A stretch of DNA of 21,624 nt from a virus: IMG/VR virus record IMGVR_UViG_3300002121_000046, positions 1 through 21,624 of that record. One strand, written 5' to 3'. Of the stretch, positions 3,550 to 21,624 are shown one piece after another (positions within the stretch are counted from its first letter, which is position 1; each line of letters begins with the position of its first letter). The translations under genes and the position numbers were made by a program. The notes beneath the pieces were generated by a model. The model did not search any database. It had not been told where the DNA came from and saw only the letters and a program-made list of their open reading frames with translations.

Positions 3550-3558
3550 TTTATGGCC

Positions 3559-4293: not shown

Positions 4294-4299
4294 ATATCC

Positions 4300-4665: not shown

Positions 4666-4770
4666 GTGAGTGATTGAGTTAGAGAAAATAAAAACATACA
4701 ACCCCTTTTACCTGCTTACCCTACCCCCCTGCCACCTCTGGGCTGCTGAGTTACATCTCCATCTGTTATA

Positions 4771-4798: not shown

Positions 4799-4815
4799 CA
4801 TGCATAGGTGGTAGA

Positions 4816-4844
4816 TTGACATATATATGGCTGAGTGATACACT
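4816..4844 (+). promoter_or_regulatory. Consensus promoter directly before the 71-aa gene
   Basis: A perfect TTGACA (4816-4821), a 17-bp spacer and TACACT (4839-4844) form a good sigma-70-type promoter. The -10 ends 6 nt before the ATG at 4851, so transcription should start on or next to the start codon. No ribosome binding site exists between. Confidence 0.65.
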
Positions 4845-4850
4845 GAGTGT

Positions 4851-5410: not shown

Positions 5411-5428
5411 GCTATGAGCTGGAAAAAA

Positions 5429-5458
5429 TTGACAAGCACTAGCTCGTCGTGTTATTAA
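5429..5458 (+). promoter_or_regulatory. Promoter upstream of the 248-aa gene and terminase large subunit
   Basis: TTGACA (5429-5434), an 18-bp spacer and TATTAA (5453-5458) with TG just before it. The predicted start is near 5465, leaving a leader of about 40 nt that carries AGGAG before the ATG at 5506. The 5411-5505 gap holds nothing else. Confidence 0.5.
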
Positions 5459-5505
5459 AAAGACAAATAAACATCTCTTAAAAAATAACTTAACAGGAGA
5501 TAAAA

Positions 5506-6252: not shown

Positions 6253-6260
6253 CCGTAGAG

Positions 6261-7619: not shown

Positions 7620-7625
7620 TATACT
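7597..7625 (+). promoter_or_regulatory. Possible extended -10 promoter before the portal gene
   Basis: TATACT (7620-7625) is preceded by TGA, and a weak TTAATG lies 17 bp upstream. The element spans the end of the terminase gene. It shares GTGATA with the promoters near 4110, 4284 and 4836. A 24-nt leader with an AGGAAA site would precede the portal ATG. Confidence 0.35.
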
Positions 7626-7648
7626 TCGCTTAAACAGGAAAATAAACA

Positions 7649-9766
7649 ATGGCTGACTACGGTTCAGAAAAAACTTCCTCAAAAGAAAATCCTTACGAGT
7701 TCGAGTATAAAAAGGACTATCAGGACGACTGGGACGTTCACCGCTATTATATCCAGACTTTTGACGCTTATGAGGCGATGCTTCTGTCCCAGGTCTACGA
7801 CTCGGTTTCGCGTAGCATCGATGGAGCTAAAATCACCGACTCTTATAATACTACCCTAGCCAAAGAACGGGCTGACCGGGTAATCGCCAAACTACCCGAC
7901 GGCCAAACTACGCCTGCCGGGAAAGCCGATGTCGGTAAAGCCTCCTTTATGGATATCCTTCGTCAGAAGTGGGTTTACCCCAACGCTAATGCTCAGCATC
8001 CATTTTTGGAAAAGCTCAATATGTGGCAACTTTATTCTTCGGTTTACGGTTATATGCCGATGTTTTACGATTGGAACGTTTCCGAGACAGGATACGTCGG
8101 GCCTGACTGCTGGCTGTGGAACCCGCGCCATCTTGTGCCGCAGCAGGGTCGAGTGTCTTTGGCGGATATGGAATACGTCACGGCTTTGACCTGGGTCAGT
8201 AAAAAATTCCTCCAAGATAAACTCGACAATGAAAGTGATGCTGACGGCTGGGACCGCGACGCTCTTCGATTGTTAATCGAAAAGGCCGACCAGGAAACTT
8301 CGTCTGATTCCGACCAAGATACCCAAACTGAAAAAACCCGGATTGCTCGACCAACCAAAAGGGGCGTTTGTCTAGCTACTCGCTACGAATCAGGAGAGGA
8401 TGGTAAATGGTGCACTTTCGCCCCAGACCATTCTCACATAGAAGTCCGGCGGATTAAGAACCCGCACAAAAATGGCAAAATCCCGTTTATTATAAAGTAC
8501 TCTCAACCGTTGTTTGATTCATTCTATGGTCTAGGAGATTTTCAGCGGGCTCAATCTTTACAGTTCGCCCGTGATGCTCTCGATAACTTCTACTTCAAGG
8601 GCATAAAGATAAACCTGATACCACCGATTGTGGCTAATGCTAATGGTGTTGTAAAACATACCCTAGATTACCGTGAAGGTCAGGTAATGCTGGAAACTAT
8701 TCCTAATTCAATTCGTAGGTTGGAAAGTTCTCCGGCGGGGTTAAACACCTACCAAGCCGCTAAGCAAGCCCTGACTGGTTCTTTACTAGCACTATATGGT
8801 TCGCAGAATGCTTCAATTCCGGGGGCTGACGCGCTTAACCCTTCGCAAGGGCGTACTCCGGCAGCCATCTCTTTGTACGCTGACAAGGAAGCCACCCGCG
8901 ACGGTGCCGAGCGTCGTCACCTGGAAGCCGCTCTCGAGCAATTAACCGACGCCTTCTTCTCGCTGATTGCTAATATCGGTACTGAGAAGATTCCTATTAC
9001 CTTATTCGCCGAGGACATTAAGGCGATTATCGAATCCGGACAGGAAGACTTGATGGAACTATTCATCCCCAACGCCGAAGCTAATGCTGGGACGTTGCAA
9101 ATCGACCCCGCTAAATTGAAGGATATAGAATATCGTTTCTCTATCACCACTGATTCGATGGCGAAAATAAACAAAGACGCCCAACGCCAGGCTTTAGAAA
9201 ATTATATCGGTCTACTAGGGAAATATCAGAATGTGCTGAAGGATGACCCGACCATCAAGGTTGAGTGGGGGCTGATAATGCAGGCTTACGAGAACGTCTC
9301 CGACATCTCGGGAGCTTCCAAATTTATCACCATCACCCCAGACGCCAAGCCACAACCACCGCCACAAACTCCGCCGCGCCCTCCATCGGAGACAATCACC
9401 TTTAAAGATGCCGTCCAAGCCGGGGCCCTTAAAGCCGCAGCCGGGATGCTTAATCAAGCTGGGTTACCGGCTGATGACTTACAACCCCCCCAAGAACCCG
9501 AGCAGTCGCCGACTGTTGCCGAAACCGGTCACTCTTTCATGGACCCGCATATAGCTGAAATTGCTTCCAGTATCTCTAAGATGGGAGTTAATTCTCCGCC
9601 TGCAATCGAACCAATGATTTCCAAAGGCGGTATAAGCTTTAACGACCCGCACATAGCCAAAGTAGCTACCGCTGTCGAGGGGATGCACCGTATGCCTGAT
9701 GGCTCAATGATGAAGAACTCTGATATGAAAGGCAAAAATGCCGTTCCGAAGAGTCGGGCCAGATGA
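7649..9766 (+). CDS. Phage portal protein
   Basis: The 705-aa product follows terL as portal genes do. It forms the dodecameric gate for DNA entry at one capsid vertex. The first 500 residues are the mixed alpha/beta core, with family-like segments such as DCWLWNPRHLVPQQGR (about 150-165), the aromatic block FDSFYGLGDFQRAQSLQFAR (about 290-309) and a long helical region near 430. A Pro-rich linker (PQPPPQTPPRPP, about 568-580) leads to a C-terminal extension of about 125 residues. The extension has two copies of a SFxDPHIAxxA motif (codons at about 9533-9586 and 9635-9685). Portals with such tails can guide scaffold or capsid assembly; that part is inference. The 3' end overlaps a 59-aa ORF in another frame. 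Confidence 0.88.
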   Translation: MADYGSEKTSSKENPYEFEYKKDYQDDWDVHRYYIQTFDAYEAMLLSQVYDSVSRSIDGAKITDSYNTTLAKERADRVIAKLPDGQTTPAGKADVGKASFMDILRQKWVYPNANAQHPFLEKLNMWQLYSSVYGYMPMFYDWNVSETGYVGPDCWLWNPRHLVPQQGRVSLADMEYVTALTWVSKKFLQDKLDNESDADGWDRDALRLLIEKADQETSSDSDQDTQTEKTRIARPTKRGVCLATRYESGEDGKWCTFAPDHSHIEVRRIKNPHKNGKIPFIIKYSQPLFDSFYGLGDFQRAQSLQFARDALDNFYFKGIKINLIPPIVANANGVVKHTLDYREGQVMLETIPNSIRRLESSPAGLNTYQAAKQALTGSLLALYGSQNASIPGADALNPSQGRTPAAISLYADKEATRDGAERRHLEAALEQLTDAFFSLIANIGTEKIPITLFAEDIKAIIESGQEDLMELFIPNAEANAGTLQIDPAKLKDIEYRFSITTDSMAKINKDAQRQALENYIGLLGKYQNVLKDDPTIKVEWGLIMQAYENVSDISGASKFITITPDAKPQPPPQTPPRPPSETITFKDAVQAGALKAAAGMLNQAGLPADDLQPPQEPEQSPTVAETGHSFMDPHIAEIASSISKMGVNSPPAIEPMISKGGISFNDPHIAKVATAVEGMHRMPDGSMMKNSDMKGKNAVPKSRAR

Positions 9767-9917
9767 TTACGTCTCACCTTCGGGAAGACACTGGACAGCC
9801 GCCCAGGTGAAGATGTATCATGCTACCAATGGATTTACCAACAAGCCGAAAGTTAAATTAAGGAGGAAAAATGGCCGAACCAGCCAACGCCATCATCGGC
9901 GAAACATTCGGTACTGA
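9738..9917 (+). CDS. Small basic protein overlapping the portal 3' end (59 aa)
   Basis: In the +1 frame relative to the portal an ORF reads MPFRRVGPDDYVSPSGRHWT, then AAQVKMYHATNGFTNKPKVK and a very basic tail. AAAGG lies 5 nt before the ATG, an ideal site. It has a globular, tyrosine-rich start and a composition unlike a random shadow frame, and it fills the otherwise empty 104-nt gap. It overlaps the portal by 29 nt and the next gene by 47 nt, so the tail also encodes the next gene's AAGGAGG. It may instead be a frameshift extension of the portal. Small basic head-assembly protein is my guess; family not established. Confidence 0.55.
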   Translation: MPFRRVGPDDYVSPSGRHWTAAQVKMYHATNGFTNKPKVKLRRKNGRTSQRHHRRNIRY

Positions 9918-10209
9918 CATACCACAAACAAAAATTGATGAAACGCAATTAGCCGAAGAAAAAAATGCCGCTCGTTATTCCAAGACTAAGGAATTCCGAC
10001 AGCTCAAAGAATATCTAGAGGGTAGGATTAAATTCTTCCAAGGGCATCTGCCCAACGGAGACCCAGCAGCTACCCAATCGCCTGAAGTTCTCTACCATAA
10101 CTGGGTAGTCGCTAATCTGGTTATTGGTGAGTTCCAAGCTGTTCTGAACTTTTACGCTAATGCCGAGGAAGCGGTCAAAGATGTCACCCGAGGAAATCGA
10201 CCAGTTTAA
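9871..10209 (+). CDS. Hypothetical helical protein in the head module (112 aa)
   Basis: Begins MAEPANAIIGETFGTDIPQT with one of the strongest ribosome binding sites in the window (AAGGAGG, 5-6 nt before the ATG), which implies high expression. Residues 25-105 look helical (TKEFRQLKEYLEGRIKFFQG, then VLYHNWVVANLVIGEFQAVL). No cysteines or membrane segment. Its place between portal and scaffold suits a head accessory protein. No family recognised. Confidence 0.7.
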   Translation: MAEPANAIIGETFGTDIPQTKIDETQLAEEKNAARYSKTKEFRQLKEYLEGRIKFFQGHLPNGDPAATQSPEVLYHNWVVANLVIGEFQAVLNFYANAEEAVKDVTRGNRPV

Positions 10210-10426
10210 AGAGTGGGGAGTGCCGCTCCCGACCCGCGACGTCCACATTAAGGATGAGGACATCGCTAAGAATATGGAAAAAGCCGAGGTCAAGAGCTGG
10301 CGTCAGGAAGGCAATAAGTTAATCGCTGAAACTCAATTAGGTGATGTGGTTAATTTTCTACCAACTGACACGATGCTGACTGGTGTTAAAAATAATCGAC
10401 CAGTATTGACGAAAGTCAGACTTTAG
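10181..10426 (+). CDS. Hypothetical protein in the head module (81 aa)
   Basis: Starts MSPEEIDQFKEWGVPLPTRD, mixed helix and strand, ending in a beta-like segment (LIAETQLGDVVNFLPTDTML). The ATG at 10181 is preferred over the in-frame ATG at 10160 because GAGGAAG lies 11 nt before 10181, while 10160 has no site. It overlaps the upstream gene by 29 nt, implying coupling. Its 3' end contains the promoter for the scaffold and capsid genes. No recognised family. Confidence 0.65.
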   Translation: MSPEEIDQFKEWGVPLPTRDVHIKDEDIAKNMEKAEVKSWRQEGNKLIAETQLGDVVNFLPTDTMLTGVKNNRPVLTKVRL

Positions 10427-10435
10427 CTATATATT
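10406..10435 (+). promoter_or_regulatory. Promoter for scaffold-like and capsid genes
   Basis: TTGACG (10406-10411, one mismatch) is followed by TATATA (10428-10433, 16-bp spacer) or TATATT (10430-10435, 18-bp spacer). It lies at the end of the 81-aa gene. The resulting transcript would have a leader of about 110 nt. Confidence 0.5.
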
Positions 10436-10549
10436 ATAAGTATCGCGCCGTTCGACGAACGAACGTTAAACAAATAAGGAACCAAAACAGGTTCCAATAA
10501 GCAAGCCGCCCGTTGCGTGAATCAGGGGCGTAAAAAAAGGACAAACAAT
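10436..10549 (+). promoter_or_regulatory. Structured 5' leader of the scaffold/capsid transcript
   Basis: Three hairpins fit in this gene-free stretch: GTTCG/CGAAC near 10449-10465, a perfect GGAACC/GGTTCC (10478-10483 with 10490-10495, loop AAAACA), and CGCCC/GGGCG near 10507-10531 just before an A-run. The AAGGA site follows in open sequence. Possible mRNA stabiliser or translational control; no known riboswitch recognised. Confidence 0.35.
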
Positions 10550-11389
10550 ATGGCCGACAAGCCCAAGAAAGAGGAGCCTGAGGCTCCCGCAGAAGTAACA
10601 CCAGAGGCGCCTGTCGCCGAAGAACCGAAGGAAGAGCCAAAAGCTGAACCTCCGGTAGAGGAACCCGCAGCAGAACCACAAGCCGAGGAGCCGGAACCGC
10701 CGGAGCCAGAGCTAGAGAGCGAGGAACCCGAGCTGACGCCGCGCCAGCAGGAGCGTGTCAAAGAAGCTAAAGAACGGGGGATGGACCCCCTGAAAATCGA
10801 GCGACTCATCACGAATATGACTCGGCCTAAACAAGCCGATGAACCTTCCCAAAAACCCGAAATCGATTACAGTACTGAGTTGGACGCTGACGAGGAAGTC
10901 GTAAAGACCCTCGAAGCAGACCGAAAACAGTATGGTGATAGAGAACGGAACGCTGGATTGGAGATGGCTAAGAACATCCAATTCCACACCCGTCTAGAGG
11001 TTGATGCGCCAAGAGTAGAACAAAAGTACAGCTTTTTAGATAAGAACAGTTCAGATTTTGACCCGGTGAGGGCCAACGCTATGAATATGCTCTATCTAAA
11101 CACTGTCGGTTACTCTCCTGGCAATCCTGACCGTGGTGCCCCAGAATCGGTGGTGAACCCCAATGTTCGCTATTACGATTTCGTGGAAGCCCAAATGGAA
11201 TTTGCAGAAGCTCTAATGGCGGAACGTAGTGTCCGCTCGACTAGAAATATCGCCAAGCAGGCGGCCGAAACTGGTCTACGACCAGATGGCAGCTCGGCGA
11301 AGGGCCTAGATTTGTCCAAGGCGCCTAAAGATATGTCCAACGAAGAACTTAATGCCGCCTTGAAAATTGTTGTTCCGCTCACAAAATAG
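10550..11389 (+). CDS. Scaffold-like protein with Pro/Glu-rich N-terminus (279 aa)
   Basis: The first 75 residues are low-complexity acidic repeats of Glu, Pro and Ala (EEPEAPAEVTPEAPVAEEPK). A mostly helical region follows, with a segment rich in Asn, Tyr and Asp near 170-210 and a helical C-terminus. It sits directly before the major capsid gene, the usual place for a capsid scaffold, and flexible acidic arms are common in scaffolds. The ATG at 10550 (AAGGA, 8-nt gap) is preferred over an in-frame GTG at 10517, which lies in the structured leader without a site. No protease is visible nearby. A decoration or DNA-binding head protein is the alternative. Confidence 0.6.
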   Translation: MADKPKKEEPEAPAEVTPEAPVAEEPKEEPKAEPPVEEPAAEPQAEEPEPPEPELESEEPELTPRQQERVKEAKERGMDPLKIERLITNMTRPKQADEPSQKPEIDYSTELDADEEVVKTLEADRKQYGDRERNAGLEMAKNIQFHTRLEVDAPRVEQKYSFLDKNSSDFDPVRANAMNMLYLNTVGYSPGNPDRGAPESVVNPNVRYYDFVEAQMEFAEALMAERSVRSTRNIAKQAAETGLRPDGSSAKGLDLSKAPKDMSNEELNAALKIVVPLTK

Positions 11390-11412
11390 AAACTTAAACA
11401 AGGATTCATATT

Positions 11413-12276
11413 ATGGCAGCTCCAACGCTGAATACTAATGTGACCTTAGCGATTGCCCAGACAGCTCAGTACGTTAAAGAGCTCTGGACGCGCGAAATCG
11501 AGCAGCCGTTTGATGCTAAACTTCAGATGGCAAAGCTAGTCTTAGACCGCTCCGGTATTGCCGCAGGCGGTGGAGACACAGTCCGTGTACCATTCGTAGC
11601 AGGGGTTAACGCTCGCGCCAAAAGCGCCAGCACGGACCTAACCTACGATTCACCCGATGGAACGGCTATCGCGCACTCTATTGACAAGCACTACTACAGT
11701 GCGGTCAAAATCGAGGATATCGCTAAAGTCCAATCAAATTTCAATCTAAGAAGTGCTTTCCAGGAACGAATGGCTGAATCACTAGCCCGTCAAATCGACA
11801 CCGATTTGCACGCGCTCTATGCTTCCGCTGGTTCGACTGTAACTGGAGGCGCAAACATTGACGACGCTGATATTCTATCCGTCGTTAGTACTTTCGATGA
11901 CGCAGATACGCCACAAGGCCAACGCCGAGGTGTTATCGGCCACAATACCAAGTCCGACCTACTTGGTGTCAACAAATACGTTGCTTACGACCAAACCGGT
12001 ATGAAAGGCAAAGCCGTTGACGGTTCTGATGGTCTAGTCGGCTCGATATATGGGATGGACATTTACCACTCGGGTAATGTTCCGACCTCAACAACGGGTC
12101 GCAATCTGTTCTTCCACAAGAGTGCGATTGTGCTGATTAAACAGCTCAAGCCGACATTCGAAGCCGAGTACAGTGTCGATTCGTTAGCGTGGAAAATCGC
12201 TGTTCAATGCGTCTACGGAGTAGGCGTCGAACGCGCAGCTTCGGTTATCGAACTGACCCGTACTACAGCTCCTTAA
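11413..12276 (+). CDS. Major capsid protein (HK97 fold)
   Basis: This 287-aa protein builds the icosahedral shell. It has the expected order: a helical N-terminal arm (NVTLAIAQTAQYVKELWTRE), a segment VRVPFVAGVNARAKSASTDL typical of the E-loop, the spine helix region (SAFQERMAESLARQIDTDLH, residues 114-133), and a C-terminal A-domain with TTGRNLFFHKSAIVLIKQL and a closing strand VERAASVIEL. Composition is soluble and cysteine-poor (one Cys). An AAGGA site lies about 8 nt before the ATG, 23 nt after the scaffold-like gene. It is likely the most abundant virion protein. Capsid subfamily not decided. Confidence 0.9.
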   Translation: MAAPTLNTNVTLAIAQTAQYVKELWTREIEQPFDAKLQMAKLVLDRSGIAAGGGDTVRVPFVAGVNARAKSASTDLTYDSPDGTAIAHSIDKHYYSAVKIEDIAKVQSNFNLRSAFQERMAESLARQIDTDLHALYASAGSTVTGGANIDDADILSVVSTFDDADTPQGQRRGVIGHNTKSDLLGVNKYVAYDQTGMKGKAVDGSDGLVGSIYGMDIYHSGNVPTSTTGRNLFFHKSAIVLIKQLKPTFEAEYSVDSLAWKIAVQCVYGVGVERAASVIELTRTTAP

Positions 12277-12277
12277 T

Positions 12278-12331
12278 GACGCCTAGCGTCTAATCTGAGC
12301 TGACCGTTAGGGGCGGCGGTCAAACCGCCCC
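12278..12331 (+). other. Two hairpins after the capsid gene
   Basis: GACGC/GCGTC (12278-12282 with 12286-12290, loop CTA) comes 1 nt after the capsid stop. GGGGCGG/CCGCCCC (12310-12316 with 12325-12331) follows. Neither has a T-run behind it, so they more likely trim or protect the capsid mRNA 3' end, or lower read-through, than fully terminate. Confidence 0.45.
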
Positions 12332-12371
12332 ACCAATAAATCGAAGATTCTAATAAATTAAGGAGGCCACC

Positions 12372-12563
12372 ATGGCAAGTAGAGCAGAACTGGAACTTCG
12401 GGCAAGCGCCGTCAACGTTGTTGTCGCTGATTACCCGAATGATTCCAAACTCGAACAAGCAGTAATCTACGCCGAGAAAGCCGTCACCACTACTGGCGCG
12501 GCTACCACGATTGCCCCCGCAGCAGCACAGGTAGCTAAAGTATCCGGCGGGGCTAACGTATAG
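12372..12563 (+). CDS. Small Ala-rich protein after the capsid gene (63 aa)
   Basis: MASRAELELRASAVNVVVAD followed by YPNDSKLEQAVI looks like a short helix-extended loop-helix (HeH/SAP-like) unit. The last 25 residues are low complexity (Ala, Thr, Val). AAGGAGG precedes the ATG by 6 nt, so translation should be efficient. HeH-type motifs occur in small phage head-completion or DNA-end proteins; the resemblance is by eye only. Confidence 0.6.
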   Translation: MASRAELELRASAVNVVVADYPNDSKLEQAVIYAEKAVTTTGAATTIAPAAAQVAKVSGGANV

Positions 12564-12571
12564 GAGACATT

Positions 12572-12784
12572 ATGGCTAAAGAAAGACATATTGAAGTCGC
12601 CGAAGGGGTGGTTCACCACCTTGACCGCGACCCTAACGACCCTCGTAACCGGAAAAATGTAATTTTGCCTAACCTGCCGGTTGTCGAATCACCCGCGATT
12701 CCGCCCAAGGATTTGGATATACATAATCCGGAACACGCTAACCTGACCTATGATGAGCTCCAAGAGCTCTTAAAAGCAGAATAG
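12572..12784 (+). CDS. Small polar protein (70 aa)
   Basis: Starts MAKERHIEVAEGVVHHLDRD, rich in Asp, Asn, Pro and His, and ends in a short helix NLTYDELQELLKAE. AGGAGA lies 4-5 nt before the ATG, 8 nt after the previous gene. It is likely a minor virion or head-tail joining protein from its position. No recognised family and no catalytic motif. Confidence 0.55.
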   Translation: MAKERHIEVAEGVVHHLDRDPNDPRNRKNVILPNLPVVESPAIPPKDLDIHNPEHANLTYDELQELLKAE

Positions 12785-12793
12785 CTCTCGTCT

Positions 12794-12847
12794 GCGGTGA
12801 CTGACCGCTTTGCGGTGACTGACCGCTTTACGGTGACTGACCGCTCG
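12794..12847. repeat. Three tandem 18-bp palindromic repeats
   Basis: Units GCGGTGACTGACCGCTTT lie at 12794-12811 and 12812-12829. A third at 12830-12847 differs at its first base and its last two bases. Each can fold as GCGGT/ACCGC around GACTG. Same-arm hairpins (GGCGGT/ACCGCC) occur just before the 63-aa gene. Likely protein-binding or RNA-processing sites. Confidence 0.85.
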
Positions 12848-12882
12848 CAACTAAGTTCCTTTATTATTCAGGGACTTAGTTG
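12848..12882 (+). terminator. 12-bp hairpin, terminator-like
   Basis: CAACTAAGTTCC (12848-12859) pairs with GGGACTTAGTTG (12871-12882) with one G-U pair and an 11-nt loop. The stem is perfect and comes right after the triple repeat. It ends the head-gene block, but the following TATTATGATAAA is AT-rich rather than a clean T-run, so it may instead block exonucleases. Confidence 0.5.
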
Positions 12883-12914
12883 TATTATGATAAATGTTAA
12901 GGGTAAAAATAAAT

Positions 12915-13214
12915 ATGACTATCCAAAGTGTTGCCGTAAATCAAGATTCCGCAGGAACGACTACGCTTGTCACGGTCAGTGCCAGCGAAGCGGTGACGGT
13001 AGTTAGCTATTTTTTGGTTCTAAGTGCTACTGGGACCTATCAGTTTGCGGGTCTTTCAAACCTAACCGGTGACGTACCCGTGGATGCTAAGGGTGGAGTC
13101 GTCGTAGCTGGTAGACCAGAATCGCCCGTTTTCGTGTTACCTCGCGGTAATAACTTGTCTATCGTCACTACTGGGGGAGCAGCCAAGGGACACCTAAGCT
13201 ATTTTATAAGCTAG
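12915..13214 (+). CDS. Small beta-rich virion-like protein (99 aa)
   Basis: Starts MTIQSVAVNQDSAGTTTLVT and alternates hydrophobic with Ser/Thr/Gly residues throughout, with no charged helices: a beta-sandwich pattern common to capsid decoration or tail-tip proteins. The ATG at 12915 is chosen over one at 12894 because AAGGG lies 11 nt upstream, whereas 12894 has no site. Its stop is 10 nt before the Ser/Pro-repeat gene. No specific family recognised. Confidence 0.6.
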   Translation: MTIQSVAVNQDSAGTTTLVTVSASEAVTVVSYFLVLSATGTYQFAGLSNLTGDVPVDAKGGVVVAGRPESPVFVLPRGNNLSIVTTGGAAKGHLSYFIS

Positions 13215-13224
13215 GTAGTACAGC

Positions 13225-14646
13225 GTGGCTTTAACTCTTGGAACCAACTCGGGCTTTGTAACCGTTGCACCTACAGAAGACCCTGCTGGAACAAGCACTA
13301 CTTTTGATGGCTCGTCTGTAGTTACAAAAGATACCAGCCCTGCTGGGGCTACAAGTATAACCGAGATAGGTTGGTATCGTGCTGCTGGAACTAATAGTGC
13401 TAATTTTGAAGTAGCTTTATATTCTGATACTGCTGGCGTAGCAGATGTTAGGCTTTTTGTTGATGACACCAACTCAGACACTGCGGGTGGATGGGTACGT
13501 GTAACAGTTGACTGGGCAATTTCTGCCAGTACGGCTTATTGGCTCGGCTTACAAATGGACGCTCACAGTGGCAACAGTGGAGTTGACCGTGCAGATTCTG
13601 GGGGTGCGGGGAGAGATATACTGGCATCTCAAACCGCTCTAAACGACCCCTACGGCGGGGGTGCGGTAGGAGACGCTGATGGGATGTATGCTATTTATGC
13701 TTTAGTCGTAGCTCCTAGTCCCTCGGTTAGCCCTAGCTCATCTGAGTCCCCCAGTATATCGCCTTCCGCCTCAGAGAGTCCGTCGGCCTCAGTAAGTCCA
13801 TCCATCTCACCCTCTGCCAGCGTATCTCCATCTGCTAGTGAAAGCCCCAGCGCCAGCGTTTCACCCAGTATTTCTCCTTCAGCTTCGATTTCACCAAGTG
13901 CTAGCGAGTCGCCAAGTATTTCACCCTCGGCTTCTACCAGTCCGAGCGCCAGCGGGTCTCCATCAATCTCGCCTAGCGCCAGCGTTAGTCCCAGTAGCAG
14001 TATTTCAGCTAGTATATCGCCCTCCTCGTCCGTCTCTCCTTCAGCCTCAACCAGCCCGAGTTCGTCAAGCAGCCCTTCCCTCTCCCCTAGCAGTTCTTTA
14101 AGCCCTTCGTCATCCGAGAGTCCGAGCATCTCTCCCAGCGCTTCAGTTTCACCGAGTAGTTCAGAATCTCCATCAATCAGCCCCTCCGCATCTGTATCGC
14201 CTAGCGCCTCAACTAGTGTTAGCGTTTCCCCTAGTGCAAGTGCTTCGCCGTCAGAAGGTAGCTCCATCTCGCCCTCGGCTTCTGTCTCGCCATCGGCATC
14301 TTCATCGCCCTCAATTTCACCCTCAGCTTCCTTGTCACCGTCAGCTTCCATCTCTGCTAGTATCTCCCCTTCGGCAAGCTTATCTCCGTCAAGTTCCACT
14401 AGTCCATCCCTGTCCCCTTCGGCTTCGGTCTCAGCATCCACAAGTCCCAGCGCCTCGACCAGCCCTAGCATCTCGCCCTCGGCAAGTGTTAGCCCATCAA
14501 GTAGTATCTCCCCATCAATTTCACCTAGTAGTAGTTTAAGCCCATCAAGTAGCCTCAGCGCTAGTCTGTCCCCATCATCCTCGGCTTCCCCTAGCGCCGC
14601 CGGGCAGACGCCTCAGTGGCGGACTATGCTTGGTGTCGGTTTATAA
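13225..14646 (+). CDS. Fibre-like protein with long Ser/Pro repeat (473 aa)
   Basis: Residues 1-160 form a beta-rich domain (YWLGLQMDAHSGNSG) that resembles virion adhesion or carbohydrate-binding domains. About 295 residues of SPSxS-type repeats follow, then a short end GQTPQWRTMLGVGL. The repeat uses all six serine codons freely, so the protein pattern is kept while the DNA is not a clean tandem repeat. Start is GTG with AGG about 9 nt upstream. It probably projects from the virion or tail. The Ser-rich rod is an obvious candidate acceptor for the sugars handled by the downstream cassette, which is inference. Confidence 0.75.
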   Translation: MALTLGTNSGFVTVAPTEDPAGTSTTFDGSSVVTKDTSPAGATSITEIGWYRAAGTNSANFEVALYSDTAGVADVRLFVDDTNSDTAGGWVRVTVDWAISASTAYWLGLQMDAHSGNSGVDRADSGGAGRDILASQTALNDPYGGGAVGDADGMYAIYALVVAPSPSVSPSSSESPSISPSASESPSASVSPSISPSASVSPSASESPSASVSPSISPSASISPSASESPSISPSASTSPSASGSPSISPSASVSPSSSISASISPSSSVSPSASTSPSSSSSPSLSPSSSLSPSSSESPSISPSASVSPSSSESPSISPSASVSPSASTSVSVSPSASASPSEGSSISPSASVSPSASSSPSISPSASLSPSASISASISPSASLSPSSSTSPSLSPSASVSASTSPSASTSPSISPSASVSPSSSISPSISPSSSLSPSSSLSASLSPSSSASPSAAGQTPQWRTMLGVGL

Positions 14647-14661
14647 CCGGCTGAAACTTTG

Positions 14662-14692
14662 TTGTAATTCTGGAACCTTTTTGTGTTAAAAT
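14662..14692 (+). promoter_or_regulatory. Promoter of the glycan cassette
   Basis: TAAAAT (14687-14692) has TGT before it (extended -10). A weak TTGTAA lies at 14662-14667 with a long 19-bp spacer. The predicted start is about 14699, only 2-3 nt before the ATG at 14702, and no ribosome binding site is present. Confidence 0.45.
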
Positions 14693-14701
14693 TAATTTAA
14701 T

Positions 14702-14974
14702 ATGCGTAAAGCTCCCAAAAGCCAACAGGAAAAAAAGGAAATTTTGGAAGCTGACCGTCGTACTAAACGCACTAAAGGTTTCGCCCTAATGAGTGTCCGC
14801 GACCAAGGTTATGCTCGGCTACGGGACTATAACCAGGGCGAGTCGGTCACGATGGACTGGAACATCCCTGGTGAGAATAAGTTCTTGCTCCATCTAGAGA
14901 GCAATAGTAAACACGATGAAATAAATCTGGTATTTGATGCCGAGGAGTTCCGTAAGTGGTTGCGCTGGGCTTGA
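14702..14974 (+). CDS. Hypothetical protein opening the glycan cassette (90 aa)
   Basis: A basic N-terminus (MRKAPKSQQEKKEILEADRR, then TKRTK) is followed by a small beta-rich unit (SVTMDWNIPGENKFLLHLES, then HDEINLVFDAEEFRKWLRW). The gene has no ribosome binding site and its promoter -10 ends 9 nt before the ATG. The 3' end encodes GAGGAG, the binding site for the overlapping glycosyltransferase gene. First gene of the operon, so it may be a regulator or small partner; no family recognised. Confidence 0.65.
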   Translation: MRKAPKSQQEKKEILEADRRTKRTKGFALMSVRDQGYARLRDYNQGESVTMDWNIPGENKFLLHLESNSKHDEINLVFDAEEFRKWLRWA

Positions 14975-15909
14975 GTGTTATTATCGCCAGTAGAGTCGAC
15001 CAATACCTACAAAAAACGGTTGACGATTTATTAGAAAAAGCTGACGGCGAGATTGAGGTCATTGTAGTGCTTGATGGTTATTGGCCTAATCCGCCCCTGA
15101 AGGAGGACCCTAGGGTTGTTATCATCCATCAAGGGACGATTCACGATAACCTGGGTATGCGCGAAGCCATAAATGCCGGGGTAAGTATTGCCCGGGGTAA
15201 GTACATTATGAAGATTGATGAACACTGCATGGTCGACCAAGGATATGACCTGAAATTGGCCGCCGATTGCCAAGACAACTGGGTGGTAATACCCCGCCGA
15301 TTTCGATTAGAGCCCGACAGCTGGACCCTGCTAGAAGATGGTCGCCCGCCCATTGATTATATGCAGATAGACTACCCCTACCAACGCCCCTATGACCGTA
15401 CTTGTGGGCTGCATGGCGGAGAATGGCGCTGGCGCCACTATGACCGCAAGCATATTTTGATAGACGATACTATGAGCTGGCAGGGGTCATGTTGGTTCAC
15501 CACCAAGGCCTATTGGGATAAACTACTTTTTCCCCTAGAGACCTCAAAATACGGCACTTTTACTCACGAGTCCCAGGAAATCGGCATGAAGGTCTGGCTG
15601 TCGGGTGGACGCCTGGTGGTTAATAAAAAGACCTGGTACGCTCATTATCATAAAGGTAAAAAAGGCAAGGGCTATGGTTTCTCTCGGGCCCAATATGCTA
15701 GACACATGGCCGACATGGAGAAAGGTCGTTTATTCGCCATAGATTATTGGGTCAACGATAAATGGGACAGCCCCGCGCGGATACACAGCTTCCAATGGTT
15801 GATGGATAAATTCTGGCCGGTACCAGGGTGGCCCGACAACTGGCAGGAGCAAATTAGAATCGACCAGGAAAAGGATTGGTCGAAGTTAGGAGAACCAACG
15901 TGGTCATAG
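14956..15909 (+). CDS. GT-A glycosyltransferase with DxH motif (GT2/GT27-like)
   Basis: This 317-aa enzyme likely transfers a sugar from a nucleotide-sugar donor. It opens with the GT-A strand LSVIIASR, then VIVVLDGYW (D40), and has GVSIARGKYIMKIDEHC with the DxH metal motif at 88-90. Further on are SWQGSCWFTTKAYW, an acidic SQEIGMKVWLSGG segment and WYAHYHKG. That order (DxH, Q/G-G-x-F, E-x-x-x-x-x-W-x-x-G-G, H) is the one seen in polypeptide GalNAc-transferases (GT27) and their GT2 relatives. GTG 14956 is favoured because GAGGAG lies 8 nt upstream; TTG 14971, overlapping the previous stop as TTGA, is the alternative. Paralogous to the first half of the 556-aa protein. Substrate unknown. Confidence 0.85.
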   Translation: MVALGLSVIIASRVDQYLQKTVDDLLEKADGEIEVIVVLDGYWPNPPLKEDPRVVIIHQGTIHDNLGMREAINAGVSIARGKYIMKIDEHCMVDQGYDLKLAADCQDNWVVIPRRFRLEPDSWTLLEDGRPPIDYMQIDYPYQRPYDRTCGLHGGEWRWRHYDRKHILIDDTMSWQGSCWFTTKAYWDKLLFPLETSKYGTFTHESQEIGMKVWLSGGRLVVNKKTWYAHYHKGKKGKGYGFSRAQYARHMADMEKGRLFAIDYWVNDKWDSPARIHSFQWLMDKFWPVPGWPDNWQEQIRIDQEKDWSKLGEPTWS

Positions 15910-16394
15910 GTCATGGTGATATTGCAAAAGTACTGCCCCAAAGAAAGAATCTACTATTTTTCGCTTCGGGTGTATCGAACTCTCAGGAAATTCATCGCCA
16001 CGCTTATGCCCGCGAAGAGGATTTGTTAATGTCTCAACCGAGGGACGAGCATATCGTTTACTTCAGTAGCTTGAGTATTTTTTATGATAATACTCTTTAT
16101 ACTCGCCACAAACGCTACATGGAGACTTTAGTCAAAGAGAATTTCCCGACTTACACTATTATGAGGTTGGGCAATATTGCTTGGGGAAATAATCCCCATA
16201 CTCTAATCAATTATCTCCGCGCCCACCCCAAGGCGGAGATAAGAAATGAATATAGGTATATTATCAGTAAAGACGAATTTCTGCATTGGATAAATCTGAT
16301 ACCGAGTTGGCCCTGCGAGATGAATTGCCCAGGTGAACGTTTAAAAGTGAAGGAGGTTTATGAGCGCTTTGTTAAACCGTATCGAACTAGCTAA
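15900..16394 (+). CDS. Half-size SDR / NAD-dependent epimerase-like protein (164 aa)
   Basis: Epimerase-like features: MVIGHGDIAK at the start as a degenerate Rossmann loop, FFASGVSNS, HIVYFSSLSIFYD before the catalytic YTRHK (YxxxK, Y67/K71), then TIMRLGNIAWGNNP, a typical sugar-epimerase segment. At 164 aa it is about half the usual 300 or more, with the nucleotide-binding half shortened and a small C-terminal part. GTG 15900 has AGGAG 7 nt upstream, better than TTG 15876. It overlaps the previous gene by 10 nt. It may be a minimal sugar-nucleotide-modifying enzyme or an evolving remnant. Confidence 0.6.
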   Translation: MVIGHGDIAKVLPQRKNLLFFASGVSNSQEIHRHAYAREEDLLMSQPRDEHIVYFSSLSIFYDNTLYTRHKRYMETLVKENFPTYTIMRLGNIAWGNNPHTLINYLRAHPKAEIRNEYRYIISKDEFLHWINLIPSWPCEMNCPGERLKVKEVYERFVKPYRTS

Positions 16395-16884
16395 GTATTT
16401 CGCCGAGCTGGGTTTTAAGGTCGGAGCAGAAATTGGTGTCAATCGGGGACTTTATGCCCAGACGATGTTCGAGAACAACCCAGGGTTAAAACTATACTTA
16501 GTAGATAACTGGGCTTCTGAGCGACGTCGGAGTAACATGGCTGAGGCGCTAGACCGAACCAACGAATATAATGCCGAAGTCATGGAGATGACTAGCTTGG
16601 AAGCTGCCCAGCAATTTCAATCTGAAGCTTTAGATTTTGTCTTTATCGACGCTGGGCATACTTATAAAGATGTCAAAGAGGACCTTGAGGCCTGGACCCC
16701 CAAGGTCAGAAAAGGTGGTATTGTTTCGGGCCACGATTACTATGAATTCCCTTCTGGTAGAGGCGGCGTCATTCCAGCCGTCAACGAATATATCGCCGAG
16801 CACGGCTATGCATTGCATATAATCCCTTGGGATAAGACCCAGAGTGTCGATAATCGTCAACCTTGTTGGTACTTTCGACGATGA
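16360..16884 (+). CDS. Class I SAM-dependent methyltransferase (174 aa), copy 1
   Basis: Motif I is GAEIGVNRGLYAQTM (22-36), then YLVDNW (46-51) and FVFIDAGHTYKDVKEDLEAW (93-112), and GGIVSGHDYY (119-128). This is the Methyltransf_24 / cephalosporin-hydroxylase-like pattern often seen in sugar or glycan methylation loci. AAGGAGG precedes the ATG; it overlaps the epimerase-like gene by 35 nt. Likely methylates a sugar or glycan end. Target not decided. Similar to the next gene. Confidence 0.85.
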   Translation: MSALLNRIELAKYFAELGFKVGAEIGVNRGLYAQTMFENNPGLKLYLVDNWASERRRSNMAEALDRTNEYNAEVMEMTSLEAAQQFQSEALDFVFIDAGHTYKDVKEDLEAWTPKVRKGGIVSGHDYYEFPSGRGGVIPAVNEYIAEHGYALHIIPWDKTQSVDNRQPCWYFRR

Positions 16885-17468
16885 CGGTTATACCAGATTT
16901 CGGCAGAAATCAGTTGGCCTCGCTCACGGCCTTGCTGGGATTTACGGTTGGCGTGGAAGTAGGAGTAGCTGCCGGAGGGTTTTCTAAGGTCATCCTAGAC
17001 GCTAATCCTAAAATGGAACTTTATGGGGTAGACCCCTGGACACCCTACGGCGGGTATAGAGACTATGCCCGAAAATCCACCCTAGATACTCTGGAAATAA
17101 AAGCCCGCCGTCTGTTAAAGGGATATGACAACTATGAGTTCATCAAGGCCTTCAGTATGGACGCTGTTCAGCAGTTCTCGGACGGTTCCTTGGATTTTGT
17201 ATACATAGATGCCAACCACCAGGAACCGTATGTCTCCCAAGATATTAACGAGTGGTATCGAAAACTCCGACCTAGGGGTATCCTCTCTGGACACGACTAT
17301 GTACGAAGTGCCCATCGGGATGGGACACCCCTGTATCACGATGTCAAGAACGCCATTCACCGTTTCACGAATGAAAATGGGATAGAGCTGTTCATCCTGG
17401 GGAATGAAGCCATAGACGAAGGGCTAGTCAGAGACCGCCCGAGAAGTTGGATGCTATGGAAAAGGTAG
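16881..17468 (+). CDS. Class I SAM-dependent methyltransferase (195 aa), copy 2
   Basis: It shares the layout of copy 1: GVEVGVAAGGFSKVI (24-38), YGVDPW (48-53), DFVYIDANHQEPYVSQDINE (105-124) and RGILSGHDYV (132-141). Its ATG overlaps the previous stop as ATGA, so that start is chosen over an upstream TTG at 16863. A tandem duplication that diverged, possibly to methylate different positions. Same uncertainty on substrate. Confidence 0.85.
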   Translation: MTVIPDFGRNQLASLTALLGFTVGVEVGVAAGGFSKVILDANPKMELYGVDPWTPYGGYRDYARKSTLDTLEIKARRLLKGYDNYEFIKAFSMDAVQQFSDGSLDFVYIDANHQEPYVSQDINEWYRKLRPRGILSGHDYVRSAHRDGTPLYHDVKNAIHRFTNENGIELFILGNEAIDEGLVRDRPRSWMLWKR

Positions 17469-18124
17469 CCATCTTAAGTTGCGTCTTGGGTGGCTTCGAC
17501 ACCCCCAAAGACCCCGTCGAGCAGGACATCCCCGCTACTTTTCATCGCTGGACTGATGAGAATTTTCCGTTAATCGCTGGTTTGACCCCAAGGTTACAGT
17601 ACAGAATCCCTAAATACTTCGGTTGGCAGATGTTGCCTGGATATGATTTTTATATTTGGTTGGATGGAGGTATATCTCTGTTAAGACGAGATTGTGCGAC
17701 GTGGTATTTATCACAAATAGATGGTTATGATATCGGCTTTTTCGAACATCCGCACCGTAATTCCATCGAAGCCGAGGTTCGGCACGTAGACGACTATCTT
17801 CACCGGCGGGTAGGGACCAAGAGAGGGCAGGACTACATCATCTCAAGATACGAGAACGGTCTTCATAAAGAGCAGTTACGAATAATCCAGAAAGACAAGC
17901 ATTATTCGGACGATAAATTATACGCTACCACAGTATTCGCTTACCGCAATAATCCGAGAGTCCAGGCTTTTATGAAGGACTGGTGGTACTACCAGAGCCG
18001 ATATTTTACTTGCGACCAGATTCCCTTGCCTTGGCTATGCGATAATTGGGGACTTAAGGTTAAGACATTCGATGAACCGCTTTATAAAACAGGGTACATG
18101 AGTTTGGTAAGCCACCACCGATGA
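17456..18124 (+). CDS. DUF616 / TOD1-like glycosyltransferase (222 aa)
   Basis: MEKVAILSCVLGGFD is followed by RLQYRIPKYFGWQMLPGYDF and YIWLDGGISLL (67-77). This matches the family pattern in which a Tyr-x-Ser/Tyr-Ile-Trp-Leu/Ile-Asp-Gly acidic motif sits after a Lys/Arg-x-Pro-Lys stretch. The family has a GT-A-like fold, with Asp70 a likely metal or donor-binding residue. ATG 17456 is used; TTG 17447 is an alternative. It overlaps the previous gene by 13 nt and the next by 4 nt (ATGA). Function as glycosyltransferase is inferred from the family. Confidence 0.6.
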   Translation: MEKVAILSCVLGGFDTPKDPVEQDIPATFHRWTDENFPLIAGLTPRLQYRIPKYFGWQMLPGYDFYIWLDGGISLLRRDCATWYLSQIDGYDIGFFEHPHRNSIEAEVRHVDDYLHRRVGTKRGQDYIISRYENGLHKEQLRIIQKDKHYSDDKLYATTVFAYRNNPRVQAFMKDWWYYQSRYFTCDQIPLPWLCDNWGLKVKTFDEPLYKTGYMSLVSHHR

Positions 18125-19005
18125 GCAGAATTGCCGTAGCCGTACCCACTATTCCTGAGCGAGCTGACATTTTCGCCAAGTTCATGGAGGCGTGGCAACC
18201 GCTGTTCGATAAGCATAAAGCCGAATTTATCAAAGTGCTAGATGGCAAATACCCAACAGTTATAGGGACTGACGAAAATACCTTGCCCTATTCCCCCGTG
18301 GATGTCATGGGTGAATACGCTGACTGTTTGTCTAATCTCAACGCTGGAATCCGGAACCTTGGCTTTGCCTATATAGCTAGGTACCTACCAGAAGTCGAGT
18401 ATATCGTCACCCTAGACGACGACGTTCTACCGATAGGCGACCCCATTGCTGACCATATTACCGCCCTCAGAAAAATGGTTCCTGTAAGCTGGATATCCAC
18501 CGCAGTCGACAACTACACCAGGGGGTTCCCCTATCTAATAAGAGAAGAAGCTGAGGTCGTCCTATCGCATGGTGTCTGGCGAGGCGTGGCTGACTGGGAC
18601 GCTGCTTCTCAGCTTATTCTGGGGAGCCACAGACCGGTAGAGTTTTATAAAGGTCCGATTCCTAAAGGTGCCTATTACCCGATGTGCTCTATGAATTTGG
18701 CTTTCAAGCGGAAGATGCTGCCTTATATGTACCACGCTCCCTGGGCGTTGGGTATCCATCGTTTTGATGACATCCTAACGGGCGTGGAGAGTAAACGCGA
18801 GATAGATAAACACGGCTGGGCAGCGGTCACTGGATATGCTAGAGTCCACCACGAACGAGCCTCCAATGTTTTCACCAATCTCAAGAACGAAGCTCCTGGC
18901 ATGGAGCTAAATGAACATTTCTGGGAGGGCGATGAGAGCCATCCCTACTTTAAGATTTATAGGGAGAAATACGCCTTATGGCAAAAATACATAGCAATGA
19001 TATAA
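18121..19005 (+). CDS. Reversibly glycosylated polypeptide / UDP-arabinopyranose mutase-like protein (GT75)
   Basis: The 294-aa protein closely follows plant RGP/UAM proteins, which convert UDP-arabinopyranose to UDP-arabinofuranose. Shared features in order: IAVAVPTI at the start; VTLDDDV with the DDD triad (99-101); RGFPYLIREE (134-143), which holds both arginines seven residues apart as in the RGYPFSLREG region of plants; VLSHGVWRGVADWDAASQLI (147-166); PKGAYYPMCSMNLAFKR (181-197); RFDDILTG (214-221); and HHERASNVFTNLKNE (243-257). From memory, the DDD and first arginine are needed for mutase and self-glycosylation. The first ATG overlaps the previous stop (ATGA). Whether it acts on arabinose or another sugar here is unknown. 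Confidence 0.82.
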   Translation: MSRIAVAVPTIPERADIFAKFMEAWQPLFDKHKAEFIKVLDGKYPTVIGTDENTLPYSPVDVMGEYADCLSNLNAGIRNLGFAYIARYLPEVEYIVTLDDDVLPIGDPIADHITALRKMVPVSWISTAVDNYTRGFPYLIREEAEVVLSHGVWRGVADWDAASQLILGSHRPVEFYKGPIPKGAYYPMCSMNLAFKRKMLPYMYHAPWALGIHRFDDILTGVESKREIDKHGWAAVTGYARVHHERASNVFTNLKNEAPGMELNEHFWEGDESHPYFKIYREKYALWQKYIAMI

Positions 19006-19691
19006 CCGCTGTTTATTACACGGCTGACGAGTTACCCCACAAGTTCGCAGTGGCTACAATGAATCAGTTGCTGAAGGCACTTGGCGATATCCCTATAATT
19101 ATTATCAAGAAAGACCCTTTAGCAGAACGTTCCCAGGCCAATATCTATCGCCAAGCATTGCAGGGGGCGAAACTGGCTCACACTAAATATATAGCTTGTT
19201 GTGAGGACGATGTTCTTTATTCCCCAGAGCACTTCAAATTTCGCCCTAAAGACGGACACTGGGGTTATAACATGAACGCCTGGAGTATCTTTACCTGGGG
19301 AGAGCCGGTATTCAGCTATAAAGCTCCCGGAGGCCGAAGGAACTTGGCTGGCCTTATCTGTGACCGCCAGATGTTTATAAATCACTTAGAAGAAAGGTTC
19401 CGGTTATGGTCGGATGATTCTAAAATCCGCAAAGAAATATTCGGTGAACCCGGAAAGTATGATAACCAGCTCGGTACGACTCCTTACCCTTCCGAATATT
19501 TTTACATTAACCCACCCAATATAATATTCTCGCACCAGACCGCCTTGCAGTTCGAGGGGTTGGGCACCCGCAAGGCATTGGGTAATATTCGTGCCACCGA
19601 GATACCTTTTTGGGGGCGGGCATCTGATATAGTAAAACTATATAAGGAAAATAAAAATGCCACAACTCAGTATCCTTATTCCAAGCCGTAG
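18978..19691 (+). CDS. Glycosyltransferase-like protein with EDD motif (237 aa)
   Basis: GT-A-like start ITAVYYTADELPHKF, a strand IIIIKKD and a central TKYIACCEDDVLYSPEHFKF (69-88) with EDD as the probable metal-binding acidic motif. NMNAWSIFTWGE and the C-terminal FSHQTAL segment follow. The YI-EDDVLY-P-HF signature is shared with the second half of the 556-aa protein (FFTEHDVLYHPSHFDF), so the two are paralogues. It overlaps the RGP-like gene by 28 nt, with AGGGAG upstream. Assigned to glycosyl transfer from pattern and context; family not named with certainty. Confidence 0.6.
   Translation: MAKIHSNDITAVYYTADELPHKFAVATMNQLLKALGDIPIIIIKKDPLAERSQANIYRQALQGAKLAHTKYIACCEDDVLYSPEHFKFRPKDGHWGYNMNAWSIFTWGEPVFSYKAPGGRRNLAGLICDRQMFINHLEERFRLWSDDSKIRKEIFGEPGKYDNQLGTTPYPSEYFYINPPNIIFSHQTALQFEGLGTRKALGNIRATEIPFWGRASDIVKLYKENKNATTQYPYSKP
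19627..19643 (+). other. Hairpin before the 556-aa gene start
   Basis: ATATAGT/ACTATAT (19627-19633 with 19637-19643, loop AAA) lies within the end of the upstream gene and 2 nt before the AAGGAAAA ribosome binding site. Could tune re-initiation. AT-rich, so stability is low. Confidence 0.35.
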
Positions 19692-21327
19692 GGAAATGTT
19701 CACGGCCAAGACAGTCGAGAACCTCCTAGAGAATATTGAGGGCGATACTGAAATCTTAATCGGGCTAGACGGAGAATGGAGCGACCCCGGAATAGTTGAT
19801 GATAAGCGAGTTAGAATCGTCCGTTATCCTCAATCAATCGGTCAGCGAGCAATGACTAATCAATTAGCCCGATTATCAACCGCTAAATACATCGCCAAAT
19901 GTGATGCTCACTGTAGCTTTGACAAGGGTTTTGACCGCATACTAATGGAGAACATGCAGGATGATTGGACGGTTGTGCCGGTAATGAAAAATCTCCATGC
20001 CTTTGATTGGGTCTGCCCGGACGGGCACCGGCGCTACCAGTCGCCTTCAGGACCGTGCAAGGATTGCGGGAAGCCCACCGAAAGGGACGTGTTATGGTTT
20101 GCCAAGCCATCGCCTAATTCCACCGCCTACTGCTTCGACCCTGAACCGCACTTCCAATATTTCAATGAATATAAAAAACGGCAGCAGGGAGACCTGGTTG
20201 AAACCATGAGCTTACAGGGGTCTTTTTTTATGATAACCAGAGACAAGTATTGGGAGCTAGGCATCTGCGACGAACAGTTTGGTTCATGGGGCTCGCAAGG
20301 TATAGAAGTAGCTGTTAAGACTTGGCTGTCGGGCGGTAGGGTGCTGTGCAACCGTAAGACCTGGTATGCTCATATGTTTCGTACCCAGGGGGGAGATTTC
20401 AGCTTCCCCTATGAACAGAAGCAATCGAGCGTGAACTTTGCTAAAAAACGCGCTAGGCAGATATTCTTCGAGAACAAGTGGGACAAACAGGTATACCCGT
20501 TATCCTGGCTGGTGGAAAAGTTCTGGCCAGTCTACGGCTGGAAGGACGAAGATTTAACCAAGCTCAAACAGTTCGACCATGTTATGCCACCACCCGCTAC
20601 TGAAAGAGGTATTATTTACTACACTGATAATCGCCTGCGATTGAGTATCGCCCGTCCAGTCCAAAAGCAGATTAAAAGTATCGCTAAAGATAGGGGTCTA
20701 CCAATAGTATCAGCCACGCTAAAACCGATGGCGCATATGGGGCACAACATCCGTTTAAAGGGCGAGCCCAGTTACTTAATGATGTTTAAACAAATCCTGA
20801 CCGCACTCCAAGCTAGTCGTGCTAAATATGTCTTTTTCACAGAGCATGACGTGCTCTACCACCCCAGTCATTTTGACTTTACCCCACCAAGAGACGACAG
20901 ATTTTATTACAACTTCAACTGGTGGTGTGTCCGCACTAAGGATGGGCTAGCGACCCACTGGGATGCCTATAAGGTTTCACAGCTGTGCGCTAACCGCGAG
21001 TTGCTCATAGGCCACTATCGTAAAAGGGTCGCCATTGTTGAAGAGTACGGCTATAACAATTCCATGGGATTTGAACCTGGGGCACATAATACCGAGGAAT
21101 CGGTGGCTACACGTGATAATTCAGCGATTCCTAAAGACATCTATGTTGACGACATCCTAATGGATTCTTGGCGCTCAGAGTCTCCTAACATTGATATTCG
21201 CGGTCATGGTCAGAACCTATCTGATAGCAAATGGAGCTTGAAGGATTTTCGGGATAAGGCCGCTGCCGTCAACTTCACTCAGAGCACAGTCGATAAAATA
21301 CCAAGTTGGGAGCATCTCAAGCTATAA
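19657..21327 (+). CDS. Two-domain glycosyltransferase fusion (556 aa)
   Basis: The first half (1-300) is a GT-A enzyme: LSILIPSR, LIGLDGEW, STAKYIAKCDAHC with DAH at 83-85, MSLQGSFFMITRDKYW, QGIEVAVKTWLSGGR and WYAHMFR. It is paralogous to the 317-aa enzyme. It carries an insertion with C120, H124, C134 and C137 (CPDGH, CKDC), a probable zinc-binding knuckle the paralogue lacks. The second half (about 315-556) matches the 237-aa protein: GIIYYTDNRL, then AKYVFFTEHDVLYHPSHFDF with EHD at 396-398. Gene fusion would couple two transfer steps. It overlaps the previous gene by 35 nt. Substrates unknown. Confidence 0.85.
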   Translation: MPQLSILIPSRREMFTAKTVENLLENIEGDTEILIGLDGEWSDPGIVDDKRVRIVRYPQSIGQRAMTNQLARLSTAKYIAKCDAHCSFDKGFDRILMENMQDDWTVVPVMKNLHAFDWVCPDGHRRYQSPSGPCKDCGKPTERDVLWFAKPSPNSTAYCFDPEPHFQYFNEYKKRQQGDLVETMSLQGSFFMITRDKYWELGICDEQFGSWGSQGIEVAVKTWLSGGRVLCNRKTWYAHMFRTQGGDFSFPYEQKQSSVNFAKKRARQIFFENKWDKQVYPLSWLVEKFWPVYGWKDEDLTKLKQFDHVMPPPATERGIIYYTDNRLRLSIARPVQKQIKSIAKDRGLPIVSATLKPMAHMGHNIRLKGEPSYLMMFKQILTALQASRAKYVFFTEHDVLYHPSHFDFTPPRDDRFYYNFNWWCVRTKDGLATHWDAYKVSQLCANRELLIGHYRKRVAIVEEYGYNNSMGFEPGAHNTEESVATRDNSAIPKDIYVDDILMDSWRSESPNIDIRGHGQNLSDSKWSLKDFRDKAAAVNFTQSTVDKIPSWEHLKL

Positions 21328-21361
21328 TGTAGCTAGTCCTTAAATAAAAAGGTAAAACAAA

Positions 21362-21624
21362 ATGGCTAGACTTTGGTCTTCAGGATTTGAGTTAAACTCC
21401 GTCACCGCCGGGATGGAGTGGACGGTGTTAACCAATTCTCCCACCATCCAGACAACTACCGTGCGTAGCGGCACTTACGCCATGAGGGTAAATCCGGCTG
21501 GTGCTACTGCTAACTTAGCGTATGATTTCCTGGCTTCTGGCGGCGGTACTGACAATCTGTTTCTCCGTTTTTACCTTAGAATTGCCTCTTCCACCAATGC
21601 TCTTGATGATATTTTCAGAATCAG
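21362..21624 (+). CDS. Virion structural protein, 5' end only (partial)
   Basis: Begins MARLWSSGFELNSVTAGMEW, then TNSPTIQTTTVRSGTYAMRV and LFLRFYLRIASSTNALDDIF, running off the window after 87 codons. The N-terminal pattern (a phrase like SSGFELNS, a strand, then FLRFYLR) is that of LamG/concanavalin-like jelly-roll domains found in phage tail or fibre proteins. AAGG lies 10 nt before the ATG. It comes 34 nt after the glycan cassette, with no visible terminator, so structural genes resume here. Confidence 0.65.
   Translation, partial: MARLWSSGFELNSVTAGMEWTVLTNSPTIQTTTVRSGTYAMRVNPAGATANLAYDFLASGGGTDNLFLRFYLRIASSTNALDDIFRI

Follow-up and report, generated by a model that had tools for sequence, protein, structure and literature searches.

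A predicted GT75/RGP-type mutase within a conserved glycan cassette of a phage genome

The phage genome and its glycan genes

The window analysed here is the whole of IMG/VR record IMGVR_UViG_3300002121_000046 (21,624 nucleotides). An earlier note, made from the letters of this DNA, had taken it for a phage genome, and so it is: genes for the terminase and the major head protein lie within the window, and a second IMG/VR contig, IMGVR_UViG_3300025324_000016 (44,744 bp), is 100% identical to it over positions 1-3562 and 4089-21624. The two belong to the same virus and, when joined, give a closed circle of about 45.3 kb. The phage also encodes a CHAP-domain protein, a NinG/HNH-like protein and a CbbQ-like AAA ATPase with a VWA protein; this last pair, of the CbbQ/MoxR and CobT/CoxE-like types, lies at 268-2797 on the minus strand. 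As the portal-like protein (705 aa) had no relative among 50,697 phage records, the phage was assigned to an uncharacterised group. The features discussed below are the following.

11413-12276, plus strand: major head protein (phrog_267, E=1e-38), which marks the cassette as inside the structural region
13225-14646, plus strand: Ser/Pro-repeat protein, 473 aa, candidate glycosylation target 5′ of the cassette (from its translation)
14956-15909, plus strand: GT2 glycosyltransferase, 317 aa, head of the cassette, conserved in cassettes (PF00535, E=4.5e-10)
15876-16394, plus strand: short SDR-like protein, 172 aa, with a YxxxK motif; family found in 8 contigs
16360-16884, plus strand: Methyltransf_24 methyltransferase, 174 aa (PF13578, E=1e-19)
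16863-17468, plus strand: Methyltransf_24 methyltransferase, 201 aa (PF13578, E=1e-16)
17447-18124, plus strand: P225, TOD1/MUCI70-like GT-A glycosyltransferase, 225 aa (PF04765 via relatives, GT-A fold matches, gene order)
18121-19005, plus strand: predicted GT75/RGP-type NDP-pyranose mutase, 294 aa (PF03214, AlphaFold model, Foldseek, residue map)
18978-19691, plus strand: GT-A/GT2-like glycosyltransferase, 237 aa, overlapping the mutase (local profiles shared with GT2 genes)
19657-21327, plus strand: GT2 glycosyltransferase, 556 aa, conserved in the cassette (PF00535, E=2e-9)

Genes from 14702 to 21327 overlap by 4 to 35 bases, their starts having been chosen mechanically, which suggests that the run forms one translationally coupled operon. 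Pfam confirmed that the mutase lies beside glycosyltransferases and methyltransferases, as the earlier note had proposed. No significant Pfam match was found for the short SDR-like protein, read as SDR from its motifs only, nor any for the 237-aa protein, which the C-terminal region of the 556-aa GT2 resembles. The stop of P225 overlaps the mutase start. Against the window's P225, PF04765 scored 13.5 bits (E 0.045), under the cut-off of 21.4; seven of the 10 members of the P225 family matched it at E up to 5, the best at 2e-7. By the evidence of its relatives, P225 is a predicted member of the TOD1/MUCI70 glycosyltransferase-like family. A PDB profile search of P225 returned only CTCF zinc-finger matches, judged to be due to chance, and an iterated local profile drifted into long proteins of two loci (L047 and L056), which were set aside.

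Family assignment of the 294-residue protein

The mutase ORF starts with ATG, ends with TAA, and encodes every motif quoted for it in the earlier note: D99-D100-D101, R134 and R141, SHGVWRGVADWDAASQL, PKGAYYPMCSMNLAF and HHERASNVFTNLK. An alignment was made of 42 homologues: 40, the window's own copy among them, come from viral contigs, and two from contigs of Patescibacteria MAGs. Both arginines are present, seven apart, in the window protein; R134 is invariant in all 42 sequences, and R141 is not (Lys in L017).

The note had placed the protein in GT75/RGP, with a mutase-type active site, and had proposed a profile search and a structure prediction as checks. Both upheld the assignment, as did the residue mapping described below. 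Pfam PF03214 (RGP) matched with E=1.2e-27 and 97.5 bits, for a curated cut-off of 23.8; NCBIfam and PHROGs searches assigned no family. A PDB sequence search returned 8cid (OsUAM2) at E=6e-14, and with the viral mutase profile 8cid was found at 5e-43 and MtdL at 9e-38. The AlphaFold model, built with the 42-homologue alignment, had a mean pLDDT of 93.9 and a pTM of 0.91. When it was compared with the PDB by Foldseek, ranks 1 to 7 (E 1e-14 to 1e-16, TM 0.72-0.79) were all GT75, namely OsUAM2 and MtdL, which are the sole GT75 proteins among the results of the PDB searches; the next family came at E 9e-7, a gap of more than 7 orders of magnitude. The predicted fold is thus GT-A of the GT75 type. 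Compared with five close homologues, the window differs at about 60% of third codon positions, with a dN of 0.17-0.28, which indicates strong purifying selection on this frame. From sequence and model, we conclude that the product of 18121-19005 is very probably a GT75 NDP-pyranose mutase.

GT75 has been described as the sole glycosyltransferase family also making NDP-furanoses, without flavin (PMC9937993), and it is, as the note stated, best known from plants. With the plant UAM/RGP proteins (OsUAM1, AtRGP1-3) the phage protein shares the DDD motif, the catalytic Arg, the Asp pair and the GT75-type GT-A fold, and the TOD1/MUCI70-like family of its neighbour P225 is also known from plants. It differs from them by its low identity (19% to OsUAM2 in the structural alignment), by an Ala in place of the Ser91-type residue and by its location in a phage glycan cassette. 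The bacterial GDP-L-Fucp/L-Galp mutases MtdL and Hyg20 have the same fold (TM 0.72-0.75) and the same catalytic residues, and here the differences are three substitutions (below) and a location outside an antibiotic pathway.

Active-site residues and what they say of the substrate

The catalytic residues of MtdL, which were tested by mutation (PMC9937993), were mapped onto the phage protein. The DDD metal/nucleotide motif (D99-D101, for D109-111) and the metal-binding His (H244, for H287) are kept, as are the sugar-accepting Arg (R134, for R159, the proposed nucleophile, and for R158 of OsUAM1), the Asp pair around it (D158 for D195, D217 for the general base D260), R214 (for R257) and R246 (for R289). 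All are invariant or almost so across the 42 homologues. That the DDD motif and R134 share one pocket of the model is implied, by the fold match plus the residue alignment only.

The substitutions relative to MtdL are Met191 for Gln229 (Met being found in nearly all RGP-like sequences compared), Ser248 for His292, and Ala75 for Asp87. At this last position active plant enzymes have Ser (Ser91), and among the homologues Ala or Gly is found in the window's nearest relatives, Ser or Asp in most others. The plant UAM subgroup requires a Ser at the position of S91 in AtRGP2; the phage protein, having A75 instead, was not filed as a UAM. S91D and S91Y in AtRGP2, and D87S and D87N in MtdL, abolish mutase activity, Ala not being among the replacements (PMC9937993). 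As activity is lost in both of the enzymes characterised, homology does not tell which substrate is used. UDP-arabinofuranose, named as the product in the earlier note, is therefore not established as the sugar, the specificity residue being Ala75 against Ser in plants and Asp in MtdL.

The same substitution could be taken to mean that the protein has no mutase action at all, and would be limited to self-glycosylation of Arg134, or would be a carrier or an inactive paralogue, like OsUAM2 or AtRGP5. A75 replaces precisely the Ser/Asp whose substitution ends mutase activity, and AtRGP2 given UDP-Glc shows transferase activity only (PMC9937993). We nevertheless hold this to be quite improbable: in OsUAM2, which was crystallised and reported inactive, the third Asp, the counterpart of Arg257 and the His are gone, whereas the phage protein keeps all of them and so looks, by its residues, like an active enzyme. 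We infer that it acts as a mutase.

The cassette in related contigs

At least 46 relatives of the mutase were found in viral contigs, in several clades. In the tree the window's copy falls in a clade of 15 (support 100/100), and its close kin are phages plus one Saccharimonadales contig; other relatives are from a Planctomyces plasmid, haloarchaea and actinobacterial MtdL. MtdL and OsUAM2 form long branches that attract each other, which limits the placement relative to plants. Among the 50,697 phage records, a single match to the window mutase was found (LR756511).

P225 lies immediately 5′ of the mutase in all 10 contigs of one alignment (A3), and a gene of the 237-aa glycosyltransferase-like type immediately 3′ in 9 contigs; GT2, SDR-like and Methyltransf_24 genes usually follow further 5′. 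As the order P225, mutase, glycosyltransferase is kept while the terminase, portal and head genes of these contigs are mostly unalike, the cassette behaves as a module. This conserved, overlapping cassette of a TOD1/MUCI70-like glycosyltransferase, a mutase, further glycosyltransferases, methyltransferases and a short SDR is a new finding.

A phage RGP was already present in UniProt: A0A6J5N5Z7, 'Reversibly glycosylated polypeptide (Fragment)', from an uncultured Caudovirales phage (BFVD). It is 42% identical to the window's protein, with a TM of 0.70 (query) and 0.82 (target) against the mutase model; unlike the latter it is a fragment, and no account of its surroundings was found. What we describe is thus a well-supported variant of phage glycan cassettes and not an unprecedented gene. 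No earlier paper on RGP or arabinopyranose mutase in phages was found in the literature searched, which is not proof of absence. The abstracts found on virion glycosylation of the mycobacteriophage Maravista type, where phage-encoded glycosyltransferases are suggested to decorate the capsid (PMC11256854), do not mention a furanose mutase.

With MtdL rather than the window protein as query, MtdL-like proteins were found in the cultured cyanophages S-T4 and Sf-CH8 and in a 735-kb huge phage. Synechococcus phage S-T4 gp110 (L106, 5929-6837) matched MtdL at 5e-22 and, at a probability of 98.8%, the viral RGP profile; Pfam RGP misses it. The Sf-CH8 protein, SfCH8_159, resembles it: both are GT75-like, with the DDD, Arg, Asp, Ser-Gln and Arg-Asp residues kept, and lie in a phage sugar cluster with a GT10-like gene, heptose genes, an epimerase and methyltransferase genes. 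They differ from the window's mutase in being of the MtdL-like branch, Pfam RGP negative, annotated as hypothetical, and in having Gln for the metal-site His. By its sequence, gp110 is an unrecognised MtdL-like relative in a cultured phage, which makes the idea testable. L107 5980-6837 likewise holds an MtdL-like GT75 protein of a cultured cyanophage, and in the huge phage (LR756501, L108 around 3001-3681) a very divergent one keeps the DDD, Arg and Asp residues.

Nucleotide-sugar supply

A UDP-glucose-dehydrogenase-like gene is present in six relatives (G2, G3, G4, G7, G11 and the Saccharimonadales contig). The six proteins are shortened and without the C-terminal domain, and keep the catalytic-Cys segment (SKCIPKD and variants); they stand at L018 2891-3664 and five sister loci, as a conserved feature of phage cassettes. 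One relative, G8, has a GalE-like epimerase. In the window virus neither of these, nor any other NDP-sugar-forming enzyme, was recognised. The self-contained route suggested by the earlier note is not supported for this virus, supply genes having been seen in sister cassettes only.

A Saccharimonadales copy and possible acceptors

The full cassette, with a mutase 69% identical to that of the window, was found in a Saccharimonadales MAG, on a contig of 38.9 kb (JANWIN010000010, L071/L072). Besides the cassette, this contig has valS-like, tsaD-like, groEL-like, tatA and tatC genes (named from sequence) among its chromosomal genes, together with a Ser/Pro-repeat gene, a tRNA gene and tail-fibre-like genes. 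It showed no capsid genes, and no terminase was found in the MAG. Relatives of tatC were present in 6 of 20 kin genomes. A fibre-like gene also lies near tat in three kin genomes (L113-L115). The mutase is not a core gene in this class or phylum, as it was found in 1 of 295 genomes of the class, and any match in 3 of 380 of a sample of the phylum. Kin of the portal protein in the class are distant (20-24% identity). Some of the cassette phages may infect Saccharimonadales-like Patescibacteria; the evidence is suggestive and consists of one MAG contig.

Ser/Pro-repeat proteins offer the leading candidates for acceptors. The 473-aa protein of the window is 55% S+T+P, with units such as SPSASxSPS, and the same virus has more S/T/P-rich genes 3′ of the cassette. 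Of 16 close relatives, 9 have such genes (at least 100 aa, with a 60-aa stretch of at least 60% S+T+P, within 9 kb of the mutase), against none of 31 distant mutase loci (Fisher p 8e-6, the kinship of contigs being ignored). It is this enrichment, which is not proof, that puts them first.

Alternatively, the same enzyme might supply furanose for host surface glycans, in receptor masking or superinfection exclusion, and not for virions. Where it adjoins tatA/tatC on the chromosomal contig of Saccharimonadales, with no capsid genes in sight, the cassette can serve a cell, and Patescibacteriota phages have been reported with O-antigen nucleotide-sugar genes including galE (PMC12911398). In the phages, however, the cassettes are flanked by head and fibre-like genes within the structural region, and Ser/Pro-repeat virion-like genes adjoin them, in the Saccharimonadales contig too, so that we regard this destination as rather unlikely. 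Phage DNA as the target, rather than protein or glycan, appears very improbable. Phages with pentose- or arabinose-modified cytosine do exist (PMC12838424); here, however, the structural-region location argues against it, no base-hypermodification enzyme was seen in a scan of ten early-region proteins, and the PHROG label 'DNA methyltransferase' on the methyltransferases comes from one matching stretch within a profile of 599 positions.

Discussion

The reading we prefer, with a probability of roughly 0.55, is that the GT75 mutase makes an NDP-furanose for the co-encoded glycosyltransferases, as part of a mobile phage module, with the Ser/Pro-repeat proteins as the most likely acceptor. An NDP-pyranose from the host pool would be reversibly converted to the NDP-furanose. 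As proposed for MtdL, Mn2+ would be held by D101 and H244, Arg134 would attack C1 and carry the sugar, and Asp217 would serve as acid/base. The furanose donor would then be used by the TOD1/MUCI70-like, GT2 and GT2-like glycosyltransferases, and trimming or capping of the glycan is probably the part of the methyltransferases. The cassette would travel between phages as a mobile module, and the most likely acceptor would be the Ser/Pro-repeat fibre-like proteins that the phage itself encodes beside it, a host surface glycan being the second choice. The sugar, acceptor and host that we infer for this pathway are putative ones.

A wider proposal, unlikely but worth stating, is that a module moving among phages and Patescibacteria builds furanose-containing O-glycans on Ser/Pro-repeat fibres, in parallel to the hydroxyproline-rich glycoproteins of plants, by means of RGP/UAM and TOD1/MUCI70 relatives, some modules having their own nucleotide-sugar dehydrogenase and epimerase.

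These results extend the range of GT75, which is conserved in phage cassettes in two branches, RGP-like in the window's relatives and MtdL-like in cultured cyanophages. They bring many new enzymes with natural variation (Ala, Gly, Ser or Asp at position 75) at the specificity site, and a system in which the making of rare sugars by phages can be tested. In Saccharimonadales, the copy found suggests that the cassette passes between phages and an epibiont lineage for whose attachment surface glycans are important. For the phage, the mutase and its cassette probably help to put an unusual sugar on its fibres or on its host.
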